Of a stretch of DNA of 64,000 nt, positions 3,926 to 50,557 are shown one piece after another. The stretch covers positions 124,001-188,000 of the forward strand of contig CAJWBE010000002.1 in assembly GCA_913020045.1 (NCBI GenBank), in the 5' to 3' direction. The translations under genes were made by a program, and so were the position numbers. This DNA is from an uncultured Oleiphilus sp. Lineage in GTDB: Bacteria > Pseudomonadota > Gammaproteobacteria > Pseudomonadales > Oleiphilaceae. Position 1 is the first letter of the stretch. Each line of letters begins with the position of its first letter. Below the pieces are notes generated by a model that saw nothing but the letters and a program-made list of their open reading frames with translations, ran no database searches and had not been told where the DNA came from.

Positions 3926-4945
3926 TTAGTCTTGCTTCTCTTTAATGTGTTCGAGAATTTGTTGCTTCAAGCTCTTTGGGATCGACGTGATGGTTAGGGT
4001 GTCTTGTTTTTCATCGAACAAAATAGTTTGTTGGATCAGGTCGGATGAAAACGAAAGGCTGAGGCCATTGCCTTTGCCTGAGATGCGCACCAGGTGCTTA
4101 AGCTTGCGGGTATCTGGGTGGAGTGCTTTATCTTCAGTCAACTCCGAGCTTTCCGTTGCAAATTGCGCGAACCGAGTCGGCTCGTTTTCGTCAAGGTGGT
4201 TCGATAGTTCGGTGAGCGGCACCGCTTCGCCTACTTGTTGTTGCTCTACACAGAATTCATAGGCTTTTTGCCGAAGGTTTGCGCCTTCTTTGGGGTCATT
4301 GCCTTTAGTGTAGTTAGCTAAAACCTGCATGAGGGTTTCTGTTTCTTTAGCGGTGTCGATGGAGCTGCTGAAACCTACGCTTTGCGCGAAGGCTTCGCCA
4401 AGCTTGCCAGCGCCGCGGGCTTTAACGAAGACAAGTGGAGGCTCTTCGCTATCGTCGGGCGTATTTATCGAATCTAGTTCGATACGTATAGCGAGATCAA
4501 GTTTGCTGGTGTTCAGATGTTCTACTGTGTCGAGGTTAAGAGAATTATCGATTAGTAAGCCGGCAGACGTTTCAAGAAGTAAAATGTAGAGGCGTTGTCC
4601 ATCGGCGCGGTCTTCGTGAATGCAGCATATGTAGTTGGCAAAGATGTCGCTTGTTTTATCTGCAAGCTCTTTGAATTTGTCTGCATAAAGTAGGCTTAGG
4701 CGTTCAAAACGAATCTTACCGTCTAAATATTCTTTCAGCCAAACTTGGAAGGGGTAGTCCGCGATATTGTTGTCGAACTGACCAAAAAGCTTACCCGCTT
4801 TAAATTGGAATTGCTTTTTTAACTGGCTGAATAGTGCTTCGTGATCTGCGCCGGAGGTAACGCTGGCCTCAGCCAAAGAAACTTGACTAGGCTGGTCGTC
4901 TTGGTAGCGCTGGATACGATGAAAAACTAGTGACTGAATCGCCAT
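3926..4945 (-). CDS. yejK: Nucleoid-associated protein YejK (NdpA)
   Basis: 339 aa, close to the family's usual ~335. The N-terminus (MAIQSLVFHRI), the FERLSLLYADKFKELADKTSDIF region and the C-terminal basic segment KHLVRISGKGNGLSLSFSS are characteristic. The E. coli protein is abundant on the nucleoid. Its exact role is not settled; it has been reported to interact with topoisomerase IV. No membrane or signal segment. It lies downstream of cysN on the same strand but is separated by a strong hairpin, so it probably has its own transcription unit. Confidence 0.9.
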   Translation of the reverse strand: MAIQSLVFHRIQRYQDDQPSQVSLAEASVTSGADHEALFSQLKKQFQFKAGKLFGQFDNNIADYPFQVWLKEYLDGKIRFERLSLLYADKFKELADKTSDIFANYICCIHEDRADGQRLYILLLETSAGLLIDNSLNLDTVEHLNTSKLDLAIRIELDSINTPDDSEEPPLVFVKARGAGKLGEAFAQSVGFSSSIDTAKETETLMQVLANYTKGNDPKEGANLRQKAYEFCVEQQQVGEAVPLTELSNHLDENEPTRFAQFATESSELTEDKALHPDTRKLKHLVRISGKGNGLSLSFSSDLIQQTILFDEKQDTLTITSIPKSLKQQILEHIKEKQD

Positions 4946-5042: not shown

Positions 5043-6683
5043 TTAGGCATTTACTTTCGCGACTTGTTTGATGATGTCGTCATCACTGTCGGCTGCTATG
5101 TGTTGATCAGCAAAGTCTGCGTCAGCGTCCGTACTCATGATAGCAATCAAACCAGCTTGCTTGATAACCTTTGCTGCGGTCAGTAATGCCTTATCATCTG
5201 AGGCAATCGATTTATCAATCACAACGGCGGTTCGACCGAGGTTGAACAGCTTACGCTCAACCGCTTGGGCTAGGATGTCGCTAGCGGCTCCGCCACAGGA
5301 AATTATTGCGCCTTCTTGCTGGAGTCTTGCTTTGCGCTCAGATGCGCTCACTGGTTGCCAATTGTTAGCTGCATCATCGTCTAGTTTTTTCTGGATCATA
5401 CCGGCGCCAACGGTGACATTGGTGAGTCGGTCTATGATGATAAATGCGCCGGTGCCTTGGTTTTGCCGGTAAGGGTCGAATGCAACCGTTTGATTTAAAT
5501 GCAAATCACACAGTGCGATGCTGTTGAGCTCCAGCTCGTCAGCAGTGCCTTTCTCTAGTGTGTTAACGTCAATAACATGCTCAATTCGTTGGATTGAGCC
5601 GGATGCGACTTTCGAGCCGAGTTTTATGTCGAATAGTTTTCCGGGCTTCAAATGTTCCTCGGCCATCCACACAATATGTGCGCTAAAGGCTGAGCCAATT
5701 TGAGGGTGGTTGTCGGGCTTCACAATCATGTCGCCACGACTGATATCGATTTCATCTTCAAGCGTTAGTGTAATTGCTTGTTCTGCAAAGGCTTCGTCAA
5801 GCTCACCTTCATAGGTAACAATCGATTTAACAGTGCTACTTTTACCTGATGGCAGTGCCATGATTCGTTCGCCGGGTTTAATAATGCCCGAAGCGATGGT
5901 GCCACAGAATCCCCGAAAGTTAAGGTTGGGGCGGTTGACGTATTGAATGGGAAGGCGGAAGTCTTCGAAGTTGCGGTCTTCTGCAATGGAGACAGTTTCG
6001 AGGATCTCCATTAAAGGCTGGCCTTTAAACCATGGCGTTAGCTCGCTGACGGACACAACGTTCGTGCCTTTCAGTGCTGATAGAGGGACAAACTGAATGT
6101 CGCCAAGCTCTAGTTCTGAAGAGAATGCTAAGTAGTCGTCTTTGATTTCGTTGTAGCGATCTTCGCTATAGTCGACCAAGTCCATCTTGTTGATCGCGAC
6201 AACGACGTGCTTGATGCCAAGCAATGATGCGATGAAAGAGTGGCGTCTTGTTTGCGTCAACACGCCATAGCGAGCATCGATTAGTATGATTGCTAGGTCG
6301 GCAGTTGATGCGCCGGTTGCCATGTTGCGAGTGTACTGTTCATGCCCTGGCGTATCGGCAATGATAAATTTACGTCGTGCGGTAGAAAAATATCGATACG
6401 CGACATCAATAGTAATGCCTTGTTCGCGCTCAGCTTGCAGCCCGTCTACTAGCAAGGCAAGGTCGATTTCGCCTTCGTTTGTGCCAGACTTAACGCTGTC
6501 TTTTTTGATGGCTTCTAGTTGATCTTCATAGATCATTTGCGAGTCATGCAAAAGTCGACCAATAAGCGTGCTTTTGCCATCGTCTACGCTGCCGCAGGTC
6601 AGTAGGCGTAAAAGCTCTTTTTGCTCATGCTGTTTGAGGTACTCGTTAATATCTTCACTAATAAGTTCTGACTGGTGTGACAT
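5043..6683 (-). CDS. cysN: Sulfate adenylyltransferase large subunit CysN with a degenerate APS-kinase-like tail
   Basis: GTPase subunit of ATP sulfurylase, which with CysD makes adenosine 5'-phosphosulfate from ATP and sulfate. EF-Tu-like G motifs are intact: GSVDDGKST (31-39), DTPGH (110-114), NKMD (165-168). Two beta-barrel domains follow to about residue 430. E. coli CysN is about 475 aa. Here residues ~445-546 resemble the APS kinase (CysC) part of CysNC fusions: [11 protein letters not shown] and [11 protein letters not shown] line up with conserved kinase helices. The kinase P-loop (GLSGAGKST type) is replaced by ISCGGAASD, and the substrate-binding half is missing. The tail is therefore probably non-catalytic. 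It lies 59 bases after the cysD stop, in the same operon. Confidence 0.93.
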
Positions 6684-46627: not shown

Positions 46628-48226
46628 ATGGATACTTTTTTTAAACAAGCCGTCACGCTTCATAAGTCAGGACGAGTAAGCCAGGCCATTGGCATGTATA
46701 AACAAATGCTGGTCAAAGAGCCCGCTCAGGCGGCCGTTAACGCTCGTCTCGCGATTGCGTATACACAGATTAGGCAGGCGCGGGCGGCGTTACCGCATTT
46801 TAGTGTGGCCGTTCAGATGTTGCCTGACGACATGGGCCTGCTGGGGAAAGCGGCAGATTGCGCGATTCAGTGCGCAGACCACGACAAGGCTGAAAAATGG
46901 CTCCGTGCTTATTTGTCTAAGGCGCCAGACAATTTACCGGTTGCCGAGGCACTGGCTGGCGTTTTAGTCGCAACACATCAAGAGGAAGAAGCGCTCCCGT
47001 TGATTGAGCGGGGGCTTAAGGCGAATAGCAAGAGCGCGTCGTTGCTCAATTTGAAAGGACTTGTGCTGTCGCGTTTGGGAGATTTGAGCGAAGGGTATGT
47101 ATGTTTCACGCAAGCACTTGCTGCTCAGCCTGGCCACCTTGGAGCTATTCGAAATGCCTTAGCGTACGCTTTTGATGAGAACCATACAGAAGGTAGCGCC
47201 AGTGATACTTTGTTATCTCCGATCATACCAGCGTTAGAATCTAACTATCAGCAGGTTGATGATAATGATGGCCTAAAGATGAACTTGGCTTACATTCTGT
47301 TTACGTATTACGAGCACAAGAATGCAGCGAAAGCGTTTCAGTATTTAAACGCTGCAAACGATATTAACCATGCGTTAACGCCATATCGTCATGAACGAAC
47401 GCAAACGTTGTTTTCTCGCTTAGGGCTGAGCCTTGCAGAGACACTTAAGCGCACTAGTACTGGCCATGAACTTGATAATGACGCTCCCATTTTTATTTTG
47501 GGTATGCCGCGTTCAGGCACCACCTTGATTGAGCAGATTATCTCTTCTCACTCACTTGTTGCCGCGTTGGGCGAGGTCGACTTTTTACGTCGTAGTTTCG
47601 AGCAGCATGGCACGCCCGCGTTAGACGATTCGAGTAGCGATGTCCAAAAAGTAAACGCTTGCCAAGCAACAATAAAAAGCTATTTATCAAAGGTTGCCGA
47701 TAACGCTGGCAACGGGGGCGCCAATGCAAAACGGTTTACCGACAAAATGCCCTATAACTTTATGTTGCTTGGTCTGATTGCCGTATTTTTACCGAATGCC
47801 AAAATTATACATTGCACGCGGGACCCCTTAGAAACCTGTTTTTCGGTGTACAAACATAACTTAAGTGGCAGCCATGGTTACACCAATAATTTGGTCGACC
47901 TAGGGAAATACTTTAATGCCTACGACGCCCTAATGCGTCATTGGAAGCAACAATTTGGCGACAGGATATATGAGGTGTCCTATGAACAAATGGTTCAGTC
48001 TCCTGAGCTTGAAACACAAAAGCTTCTAACGTTTTGCGGGCTTGATGTGGAGGGCGCTTGTTTAGTGCCGCACAACACTAAGCGCATTGTTCGAACCGCG
48101 AGCGCGGCACAAGTTAGGCAGCCAATCTATCATACCTCGCTTAAGGCTTCGGCTTCGTTTGAGGGCTTTCTTGAACCATTGATTGAAACGTTAAACTCGA
48201 AAGAGGGCGGTCAACTCGAACTTTAA
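46628..48226 (+). CDS. TPR-repeat sulfotransferase family protein
   Basis: 532 aa. About six tetratricopeptide repeats (residues 5-250) precede a sulfotransferase domain whose 5'-PAPS site reads GMPRSGTTL (292-300), with a 3'-phosphate-type segment IIHCTRDPLETCFSVYKH. Such fusions are common in marine gammaproteobacteria; acceptors are unknown, possibly peptides or glycans. Needs PAPS, which requires an APS kinase, so it is relevant to the degenerate tail of CysN. A good terminator follows. Confidence 0.88.
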   Translation: MDTFFKQAVTLHKSGRVSQAIGMYKQMLVKEPAQAAVNARLAIAYTQIRQARAALPHFSVAVQMLPDDMGLLGKAADCAIQCADHDKAEKWLRAYLSKAPDNLPVAEALAGVLVATHQEEEALPLIERGLKANSKSASLLNLKGLVLSRLGDLSEGYVCFTQALAAQPGHLGAIRNALAYAFDENHTEGSASDTLLSPIIPALESNYQQVDDNDGLKMNLAYILFTYYEHKNAAKAFQYLNAANDINHALTPYRHERTQTLFSRLGLSLAETLKRTSTGHELDNDAPIFILGMPRSGTTLIEQIISSHSLVAALGEVDFLRRSFEQHGTPALDDSSSDVQKVNACQATIKSYLSKVADNAGNGGANAKRFTDKMPYNFMLLGLIAVFLPNAKIIHCTRDPLETCFSVYKHNLSGSHGYTNNLVDLGKYFNAYDALMRHWKQQFGDRIYEVSYEQMVQSPELETQKLLTFCGLDVEGACLVPHNTKRIVRTASAAQVRQPIYHTSLKASASFEGFLEPLIETLNSKEGGQLEL

Positions 48227-48309: not shown

Positions 48310-48798
48310 CTAGCCGCGTCGTCGAAACATTGGCTTTGGCTCGTCTACAGCGCATTGATAGCTGTTGCTAAAGTCGCTTAGTCCAGCCAGTGCCGCTTCC
48401 GTTGCCGTGTCTTCACGAACCGCGAATGCATCAAAGCCACAGCGCTTTAGGTAAAACATTTGGTCATGAAGTACATCGCCAATTGCTCTTAGTTCACCTT
48501 GGTAGCCAAGTTGGTCTCGCAAGATTCTAGCAATTGAGTAACCGCGACCATCCACAAATTTTGGGAAGTTGATGGCAATAACGGCGATGTTGTTAAGGTG
48601 CGGTTCAAGTGCATCAGCACGTTCGTCGCTGTCTATCCACACGCCAACGTTCGAGTTGTCGCTCAACGCTGCCGCGTTTTCCAAGTACAAGGCTAGAGGT
48701 AATAAAGCTTTACCGGTAACCGCATCTATCGTTGCGTCTTTTTCAAGCGTTAGCCACTCGTTGTCGATAATCGTCGCGTTCTTAATCAGCTTTGGCAT
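48310..48798 (-). CDS. DUF934 protein, sulfite reduction accessory
   Basis: 162 aa from ATG 48798 (MPKLIKNATIIDNEW). Family features include VWIDSDERADAL, INFPKFVDGRGYSIARILRD and GELRAIGDVLHDQMFYLKRCGFDAF. DUF934 genes follow the sulfite reductase gene in Pseudomonas-like genomes and are annotated as oxidoreductases probably involved in sulfite reduction; biochemical proof is lacking. It overlaps the cysI end by 17 bases, so it is translationally coupled. Confidence 0.85.
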   Translation of the reverse strand: MPKLIKNATIIDNEWLTLEKDATIDAVTGKALLPLALYLENAAALSDNSNVGVWIDSDERADALEPHLNNIAVIAINFPKFVDGRGYSIARILRDQLGYQGELRAIGDVLHDQMFYLKRCGFDAFAVREDTATEAALAGLSDFSNSYQCAVDEPKPMFRRRG

Positions 48799-50437
48799 AT
48801 ACACGCTCCTTGAATAGATCCATACCAATGCGGCGATAGGTATCAATAAATAACTCGTCGTCATGTCTGTTTTCGACAAAGACATTAATTATTTTTTCAA
48901 TCACATCGGGCATGTCATTTCGCGCAAATGAAGGGCCAAGAATTTTCCCGATGGCAGCATTCTTACCCGAGTCACCACCGAGCGAGACTTGATAAAACTC
49001 TTCGCCGCGTTTGTCGACGCCGAGTATGCCAATGTTGCCGATATGGTGATGACCACAGGCGTTCATGCAGCCAGAGATATTGAGCTCTAGCTCGCCTAGG
49101 TCATACAAGTAATCAAGGTCATCAAATCGCAACTGAATTTGTTCCGCTACAGGAATAGACTTGGCGTTGGCTAGACCGCAGAAGTCTCCGCCAGGGCAGC
49201 AAATCATATCCGTTAGCATCCCAAGGTTAGCGGTCGCAAAACCGGCTAACTTAGCTTCTTGCCAAAGTTCGTATAAACGAGCTTGCTGCACATCGGCGAG
49301 TACAATGTTTTGGTCGTGCGCGACACGCACTTCACCAAAGCTGTACTTATCCGCTAGGTTTGCAATGATCTCTACTTGTTTGTCACTGGCATCACCTGGA
49401 GGCGTTCCTGTCTTCTTCAGCGTCAGCGTGACAATGGCGTAGCCATCTTGCTTATGCGTGTTAACGTTACGTTTTACCCAGTTCGCAAACTCAGGATTGG
49501 CTGCTAGCTGTGCCTCATGCTCAGCGTTAGACACAGACACGTAGTCTGGGGCAACGAAGAATGTTTTAACGCGGTCAATTTCTGCTGATGTCAGCGTCGC
49601 ATCGCTATCTTTGTTATGCGCCCATTCTTTCTCGACGGCTTCTGCGAAGACACTTGGCGTCATCGCTTTGACTAATATCTTGATACGAGCTTTGTACTTG
49701 TTATCGCGTCGACCATTAAGGTTGTATACGCGAAGTATTGCATCCAAATAGGTGAGCAAGTGTTTTTCAGGTAAGAACGCTTTGATCTCAGAGCCAATCA
49801 CTGGCGTCCGACCAAGACCGCCGCCTACAAATACTTTAAAGCCTACTTCGCCGGCCTCATTCTTAATAATTTGAAGACCGATATCGTGGACCAATATAGC
49901 AGCACGATCTACGTCAGGAACGGAGTTTACGGCGATCTTAAATTTGCGCGGTAAGAATGCGAATTCCGGGTGGAAGGTAGACCATTGACGAATGATTTCG
50001 CAGTAAGGGCGAGGGTCGAGCACTTCGTCCTCTACTACGCCCGCGAACTGATCCGTTGTCGTGTTTCGAATACAGTTGCCACTGGTTTGGATAGCGTGCA
50101 TCTCAACTTCTGCTAACTCCTCAAGAATCGAAGGAACGTCCTTGATCTCGGGCCAGTTAAACTGCACGTTTTGGCGCGTTGTGAAGTGCACGTAGCCTTT
50201 GTCATAATCGCGGGAGACTCGAGCTAGGGTACGAAGCTGTGTTGACGAAAGCATGCCGTAAGGCACTGCTACACGAAGCATGGGCGCGTGGCGCTGCACG
50301 TACAGTCCGTTTTGAAGCCTGAGTGGCAGATATTCGTCTGCGCCTAAAGTGCCGTCGAAGAATCGTTCAGTTTGGCCGCGAAATTGCGCGACACGTTCTT
50401 GAACGATTTTTCTATCGTAATCGTCGTATTTATACAT
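48782..50437 (-). CDS. cysI: Sulfite reductase, hemoprotein (CysI-type)
   Basis: Reduces sulfite to sulfide. 551 aa from ATG 50437, which has GAGAGAG just upstream. Siroheme and [4Fe-4S] ligands are in CCPGGDFCGLANAKS and NISGCMNACGHHHIGNIG, near the C-terminus. Substrate-loop arginines are in FTTRQNVQFNWPEI and SGNCIRNTTTDQFAG. The pattern is that of the ferredoxin-type/nitrite-sulfite reductase group with DUF934, not the enteric cysJI pair. cysH and cysG are not in the window. Confidence 0.9.
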   Translation of the reverse strand: MYKYDDYDRKIVQERVAQFRGQTERFFDGTLGADEYLPLRLQNGLYVQRHAPMLRVAVPYGMLSSTQLRTLARVSRDYDKGYVHFTTRQNVQFNWPEIKDVPSILEELAEVEMHAIQTSGNCIRNTTTDQFAGVVEDEVLDPRPYCEIIRQWSTFHPEFAFLPRKFKIAVNSVPDVDRAAILVHDIGLQIIKNEAGEVGFKVFVGGGLGRTPVIGSEIKAFLPEKHLLTYLDAILRVYNLNGRRDNKYKARIKILVKAMTPSVFAEAVEKEWAHNKDSDATLTSAEIDRVKTFFVAPDYVSVSNAEHEAQLAANPEFANWVKRNVNTHKQDGYAIVTLTLKKTGTPPGDASDKQVEIIANLADKYSFGEVRVAHDQNIVLADVQQARLYELWQEAKLAGFATANLGMLTDMICCPGGDFCGLANAKSIPVAEQIQLRFDDLDYLYDLGELELNISGCMNACGHHHIGNIGILGVDKRGEEFYQVSLGGDSGKNAAIGKILGPSFARNDMPDVIEKIINVFVENRHDDELFIDTYRRIGMDLFKERVYAKAD

Positions 50438-50557
50438 GTACTCTCTCGAAATCAGATGCGTTGTTCTAAACAAAAAGCTAAAACAACCGGTCTTATAGCC
50501 TAAAAAAGGGCGTGAATGTTAGCAGCTTCGTGTATTCGTTAAAACTGGTTTAATTAG

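Follow-up and report, generated by a model that had tools for sequence, protein, structure and literature searches.

Does the CysN protein of an uncultured Oleiphilus sp. carry the remains of an APS kinase at its C-terminus, and, if so, why would they have been kept? The window, by which we mean the whole 64,000-nucleotide stretch of DNA analyzed (contig CAJWBE010000002.1, positions 124,001 to 188,000 of the forward strand), encodes cysN, the GTPase subunit of the CysDN ATP sulfurylase (546 aa; 5043..6683, minus strand). Upstream lies cysD (PF01507; 6743..7651, minus strand), whose start was set by eye at MSKYN within a listed open reading frame that extends to 7774; also beside cysN is a 37-kDa nucleoid-associated protein (NA37; 3926-4945). 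The protein passes the curated cut-offs of NF003478 (E = 5.1e-220), TIGR02034 (E = 6.2e-197), and the CysNC model NF004035 (E = 1.8e-231; 769.8 bits vs. a cut-off of 715), and these matches, together with the adjoining cysD, identify it as a CysN. Its nearest solved chain, 1zun_B, spans residues 1-430 only. The tail, delimited with NCBIfam, profiles, and predicted structure, comprises residues 441-546 and, with the stop codon, occupies 5043..5363 on the minus strand. It is almost certainly an inactive APS-kinase remnant, and we lean toward the view that selection retains it as a module for structure or assembly; that role, and the direction of change, we infer.

Results

How firmly can the tail be tied to APS kinase? 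A single tail sequence reveals the kinship only weakly. Pfam returned nothing above cut-off for the ~106 residues, the only match being an unrelated one (E = 0.11); a PHROGs search returned 0 families; and the tail alone gave weak NCBIfam matches to the CysNC model NF004035 (E = 0.0039) and the apsK model TIGR00455 (E = 0.074). When a tail profile was searched against PDB sequences, APS kinase was the best match (E = 0.0039) with an epimerase near behind (0.038), a result that is indecisive taken alone. By contrast, the kinship is clear from the family profile and the predicted structure. In hhalign, the tail matched a CysC alignment from which type-1 CysNC rows had been excluded (E = 1.4e-9, probability 96.4, 77 columns); a second, separate tail set matched it at E = 6.8e-9, and the negative control, the tail against a CysH alignment, gave E = 0.4 and a probability of 0.1. 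The tail profile also recovers true, P-loop-bearing CysNC at ~1e-12 over positions 2-57.

The predicted fold agrees. A tail model built from alignment A1, which holds 20 of the 30 tails of the window's family, has a pLDDT of 91.6 and a pTM of 0.83. In a Foldseek search of the PDB with this model, all of the first 27 rows were APS kinases or PAPS synthases, and 16 rows had E <= 0.001. With VIA-align, Arabidopsis APS kinase (residues 86-268) was the top match, aligning 104 residues to model residues 3-106 (Z = 11.4, rmsd 2.4), and Penicillium APS kinase aligned with the full 106 residues of the tail (Z = 11.0); thymidylate kinases came lower (Z <= 6.9). A second model, of the most diverged tails of other families (~25 percent identity outside their own group), shows its elements in unchanged order (pLDDT 88.0, pTM 0.77); its best VIA matches are again APS kinases, at a modest Z of 8.8 and 8.7 with unrelated rows at ~5.7 and below, and its Foldseek search gave no row at E <= 0.001 (best 0.010). 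Profile and fold similarity thus run across the domain, the negative control is clean, and the tail descends from the APS kinase superfamily; a chance resemblance or an unrelated tail is ruled out by the profiles, the models, and the negative control. The first-pass annotation had proposed this kinship, which Foldseek, VIA-align, and hhalign bear out, and the open reading frame, its coordinates, the kinase-like helix residues, and the ISCGGAASD that it placed at the P-loop are all present.

Which parts of the kinase have gone, and which remain? Aligned with type-1 and type-2 CysNC, the tails retain the linker helix, strand 1, helix 1, and strand 2, then a helix ending AGLIAI, and lastly a strand and helix that align with the kinase end ADLVIDT..VEEGVK. 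In the window's protein, DSSP of the model and the alignment locate the linker helix at residues 447-454 (5322..5345), the first core helix (VERKLFN) at residues 468-481 (5241..5282), and, with whole-length structural alignment in addition, the C-terminal strand and helix at residues 525-546 (5046..5111), all on the minus strand. Missing from the tails are the P-loop residues, ~16-22 residues past strand 2, and some 50 mid residues; the middle and lid are deleted in 36/36 aligned tails of the main set. The domain's second half had been thought absent, but structural and sequence alignments show that the middle was deleted instead. Loss of the P-loop, also claimed, holds throughout: by alignment and motif search, its place in the window's protein is taken by ISCGGAASD (residues 461-469; 5277..5303, minus strand), and Walker A (GxxxxGK[ST]) stands at this position in 0/79 tailed CysN frames vs. 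22/22 CysNC frames. A loose Walker A regex matches 3/79 tails, always in LERGLFERGKT further along.

Having lost the P-loop, the segment that follows strand 2, and the lid-bearing middle, the domain is not expected to bind ATP normally or to make PAPS, and by sequence the tailed proteins, which have neither Walker A nor the lid and middle, would not class as active APS kinases or as CysNC. The linker helix pattern ERxxR also recurs in tailed CysN and type-1 CysNC, and the charged residues that recur in this helix and in the first helix are found in type-1 CysNC as well. These shared residues are not known to be catalytic and so hint at some function other than catalysis.

Is the tail a quirk of one genome? 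In the window's family, it forms the end of CysN at 30/30 sampled loci (out of 61 genomes), which makes it a lineage-wide architecture. A match to ordinary CysN C-termini had been named in advance as evidence against a kinase origin; CysN in this family does indeed usually end in such a tail, but the match of the tail to APS kinase stands. Across the order, 93/194 genomes matched CysN at 1e-100, 13 of the 93 were left out (including L062, with no parsable frame), and 53 of the 80 genomes with CysN examined carried at least one tailed CysN (15 family codes). The class sample, in which 50 genomes matched and 20 further loci were taken from 19 genomes, yielded 6 tailed loci from 5 genomes, 9 loci with a P-loop, 1 with a tail-less end, 1 cut by N, and 3 without a frame. 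The named scan took in 11 of 80 loci, and the rows of alignments A2 and A3 were chosen by hand. All 79 tailed frames continue without a stop to a comparable length (513-561 aa), a uniformity that the selection of open frames favors; L144 and L149 are counted in the 79 and the 53, but seem to be of separate origin or are poorly alignable. Tail-less CysN exists as well (14 frames), so the tail is inessential to CysN as such. One genome (G381) encodes two CysN (L233 and L234), whose ends match as far as the first tail helix and diverge beyond it.

Is the tail still under selection? We estimated dN/dS by the Nei-Gojobori method (NG86), which is rough at dS near or above 1, as medians over pairs with dS < 2 (97/168 pairs usable; 0/10 in the window's own genus). 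Across seven groups, with 74, 10, 2, 3, 3, 3, and 2 usable pairs, respectively, median tail dN/dS was 0.111, 0.145, 0.060, 0.086, 0.163, 0.064, and 0.138, and median body dN/dS, in the same order, was 0.042, 0.057, 0.014, 0.028, 0.034, 0.044, and 0.035. The highest tail dN/dS was 0.25, and tail values were 1.5 to 5 times those of the body. For CysNC, two groups gave similar values for the kinase and the body (0.115 vs. 0.133 and 0.072 vs. 0.060). The tail is constrained, though more loosely than the body; measured against its body, it is also under weaker constraint than a working kinase domain. A tail looser than its body, while the CysNC kinase is close to its body, fits partial decay. The first-pass annotation had offered either a structural or regulatory role or a fusion in decay; a role fits these ratios better, and plain decay fits them less well.

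Could the tail nonetheless be a passive relic, without function and slowly disappearing? Such a relic would account for a constraint looser than that of the body, for the strong divergence among families (19-30 percent identity to the first row across groups), for the existence of tail-less CysN, and for L144, whose frame ends early, but it sits poorly with median tail dN/dS of 0.06-0.16 where measurable, with two tail models that fold confidently, and, as far as the selection of open frames allows, with 79 frames all open to a similar end. We consider it unlikely and continue with the retained module as the preferred reading.

Did the tails arise once? Trees of the CysN body were built with 18 near relatives dropped (61 rows) and then with 5 long-branched rows dropped too (60-row tree), and the tail label changes 6 times on the former and 7 times on the latter. 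An AU test against the tails as one clade gave P = 0.028 (59 rows), on a body tree with a poorly resolved backbone and for a group named after the tree had been seen. A single origin of all tails is, on this mild evidence from tree and test, not supported. The kinase probably came first and the remnant later, the family being catalytic. The 513-aa frame of L144 stops shortly past AGLIVL and is nested within the type-2 CysNC clade; it looks like a separate decay. In five Myxococcales/Deltaproteobacteria CysNC (L193, L194, L199, L201, and L204), the P-loop of a longer CysC domain reads GLPGSGRW, with the Walker A lysine and Ser/Thr replaced, and these appear to represent yet another independent loss that is under way. 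Tentatively, a noncatalytic module governing assembly or output may have arisen convergently, more than once, from a fused APS kinase in CysDN: in the Pseudomonadales-type tails, in the type-2-derived L144, and in the Myxococcales GLPGSGRW CysNC.

How do tailed cells activate and reduce sulfate? A separate active CysC had been expected, and the host has one that is intact and active-looking, with the P-loop GLSGAGKS (L001, G000:C25). By eye, it adjoins a UDP-glucose dehydrogenase-like frame and a TPR protein, neighbors hinting at sulfated polysaccharide, not cysteine synthesis. The window itself encodes a TPR-sulfotransferase (46628..48226, plus strand; PF13469 E = 6.6e-43 and TPR matches), a likely PAPS user; directly downstream is a sulfite/nitrite reductase (NIR_SIR; 48782-50473). 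The host CysH carries KECCG and CEPC cysteines, scores over the APS reductase cut-off (261.2 vs. 235.3 bits), and is predicted to be an Fe-S APS reductase. This reductase lets the cell reduce APS directly to sulfite, and the separate CysC can provide the PAPS needed for sulfation.

The expectation of a separate CysC does not extend to the order, because 23/53 tailed genomes show no APS kinase, so PAPS is often dispensable. The 24/53 without a strong kinase match were rechecked singly: 17 had no match, 1 had a broken CysC (G042), and 6 had matches at 21-24 bits, of which, by eye, five are of the Ffh type and one is a larger P-loop protein resembling L002. The CysC matches of G042 lie in pieces on two contigs (L281, L288, and L289), one with internal stops, and are broken or poorly assembled. 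APS reductase scored over the curated cut-off in 43/53 tailed genomes, 9/13 with type-1 CysNC, 2/9 with type 2, and 8/14 with tail-less CysN. Among the 23 kinase-less tailed genomes, it did so in 18, the exceptions being G123, G143, G181, G195, and G205. In all ten tailed exceptions (L265-L274, from G239, G195, G218, G181, G205, G123, G143, G067, G096, and G231), CysH lacks the CC/CxxC cysteines that mark Fe-S APS reductases. Four of these ten genomes lack an APS kinase match and a fifth has an Ffh-type match only, which suggests that the kinase-less ones have either an APS reductase of the Fe-S-less kind or a source of PAPS that escaped detection. The idea that APS reductase alone explains the kinase loss is only partly borne out.

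Discussion

How might an inactive kinase come to be kept on CysN? An APS kinase domain would once have been fused to CysN, as in CysNC, and would then have lost its P-loop, the stretch past strand 2, and the mid region with the lid. Where the cell reduces APS directly, this loss would have been free of cost to cysteine synthesis. The leftover core may have been retained for a noncatalytic job on CysN, most likely stabilizing CysN or an interface within the CysDN assembly. According to the available part of one source, the CysN-fused kinase CysC of Mycobacterium tuberculosis is a dimer (PMC4373884), and on that basis the domain in its ancestral form may have had a part in assembly.

The tail might instead be a regulatory domain that binds APS or PAPS and tunes CysDN, like the inactive domain of Penicillium ATP sulfurylase. 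The two are the same kind of domain at the same relative place, the structural rows include the Penicillium (1m8p and 1i2d, Z = 8.3) and yeast (1j70, Z = 6.7) ATP sulfurylases, and the part of the literature available to us describes the Penicillium chrysogenum domain as one that binds PAPS but lacks kinase activity (PMC3734648). However, most known ligand contacts went with the P-loop, the post-strand-2 stretch, and the lid, and PAPS is an unlikely ligand in the 23/53 tailed genomes without APS kinase; we judge ligand-based regulation distinctly unlikely. Very unlikely is a docking site at which APS reductase or a separate CysC, as the enzyme that acts next, is kept close to where APS is made, since the CysH-like domain at the CysN C-terminal place of L148 (G187), by which a reductase can sit there, is a single fusion, and tails co-occur with Fe-S and Fe-S-less CysH alike. 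The 658-aa CysN frame of L148 ends, by eye, like an Fe-S-less CysH and has a long tree branch; it is possibly an ATP sulfurylase-reductase fusion.

How does a retained structural or assembly module compare with known systems? CysNC (NodQ type), which joins CysN to an active APS kinase, shares with tailed CysN the body, the linker helix, the first strand and helix, and the final strand and helix, but keeps the P-loop, LDG motif, and lid and is longer (~630-657 aa). CysN of the E. coli type (~475 aa) shares the body and has a short end without the tail domain. The C-terminal domain of yeast ATP sulfurylase, likewise APS-kinase-like but on a Sat-type enzyme, has a role in hexamer formation. One source states that this yeast domain lacks a defined function (PMC3779200). 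The Penicillium domain, too, sits on a Sat-type enzyme unrelated to CysN, and it is larger than the tail and binds PAPS. By analogy, the fungal and yeast enzymes would be a convergent precedent for the tail.

Among open-access titles and abstracts on CysN tails and inactive APS kinase domains, we found no such tail described. In the part available to us, one study sorted CysN as with or without a CysC domain by means of the Pfam APS kinase model (PMC1780047); tailed CysN is a third architecture, which such two-way sorting files as plain CysN. Conversely, a CysNC-like annotation is no proof of PAPS synthesis, as the window's CysN clears the CysNC cut-off. Should the tail prove functional, two unrelated ATP sulfurylases have each retained an inactive APS-kinase domain, and this would point to a shared need in sulfate activation.
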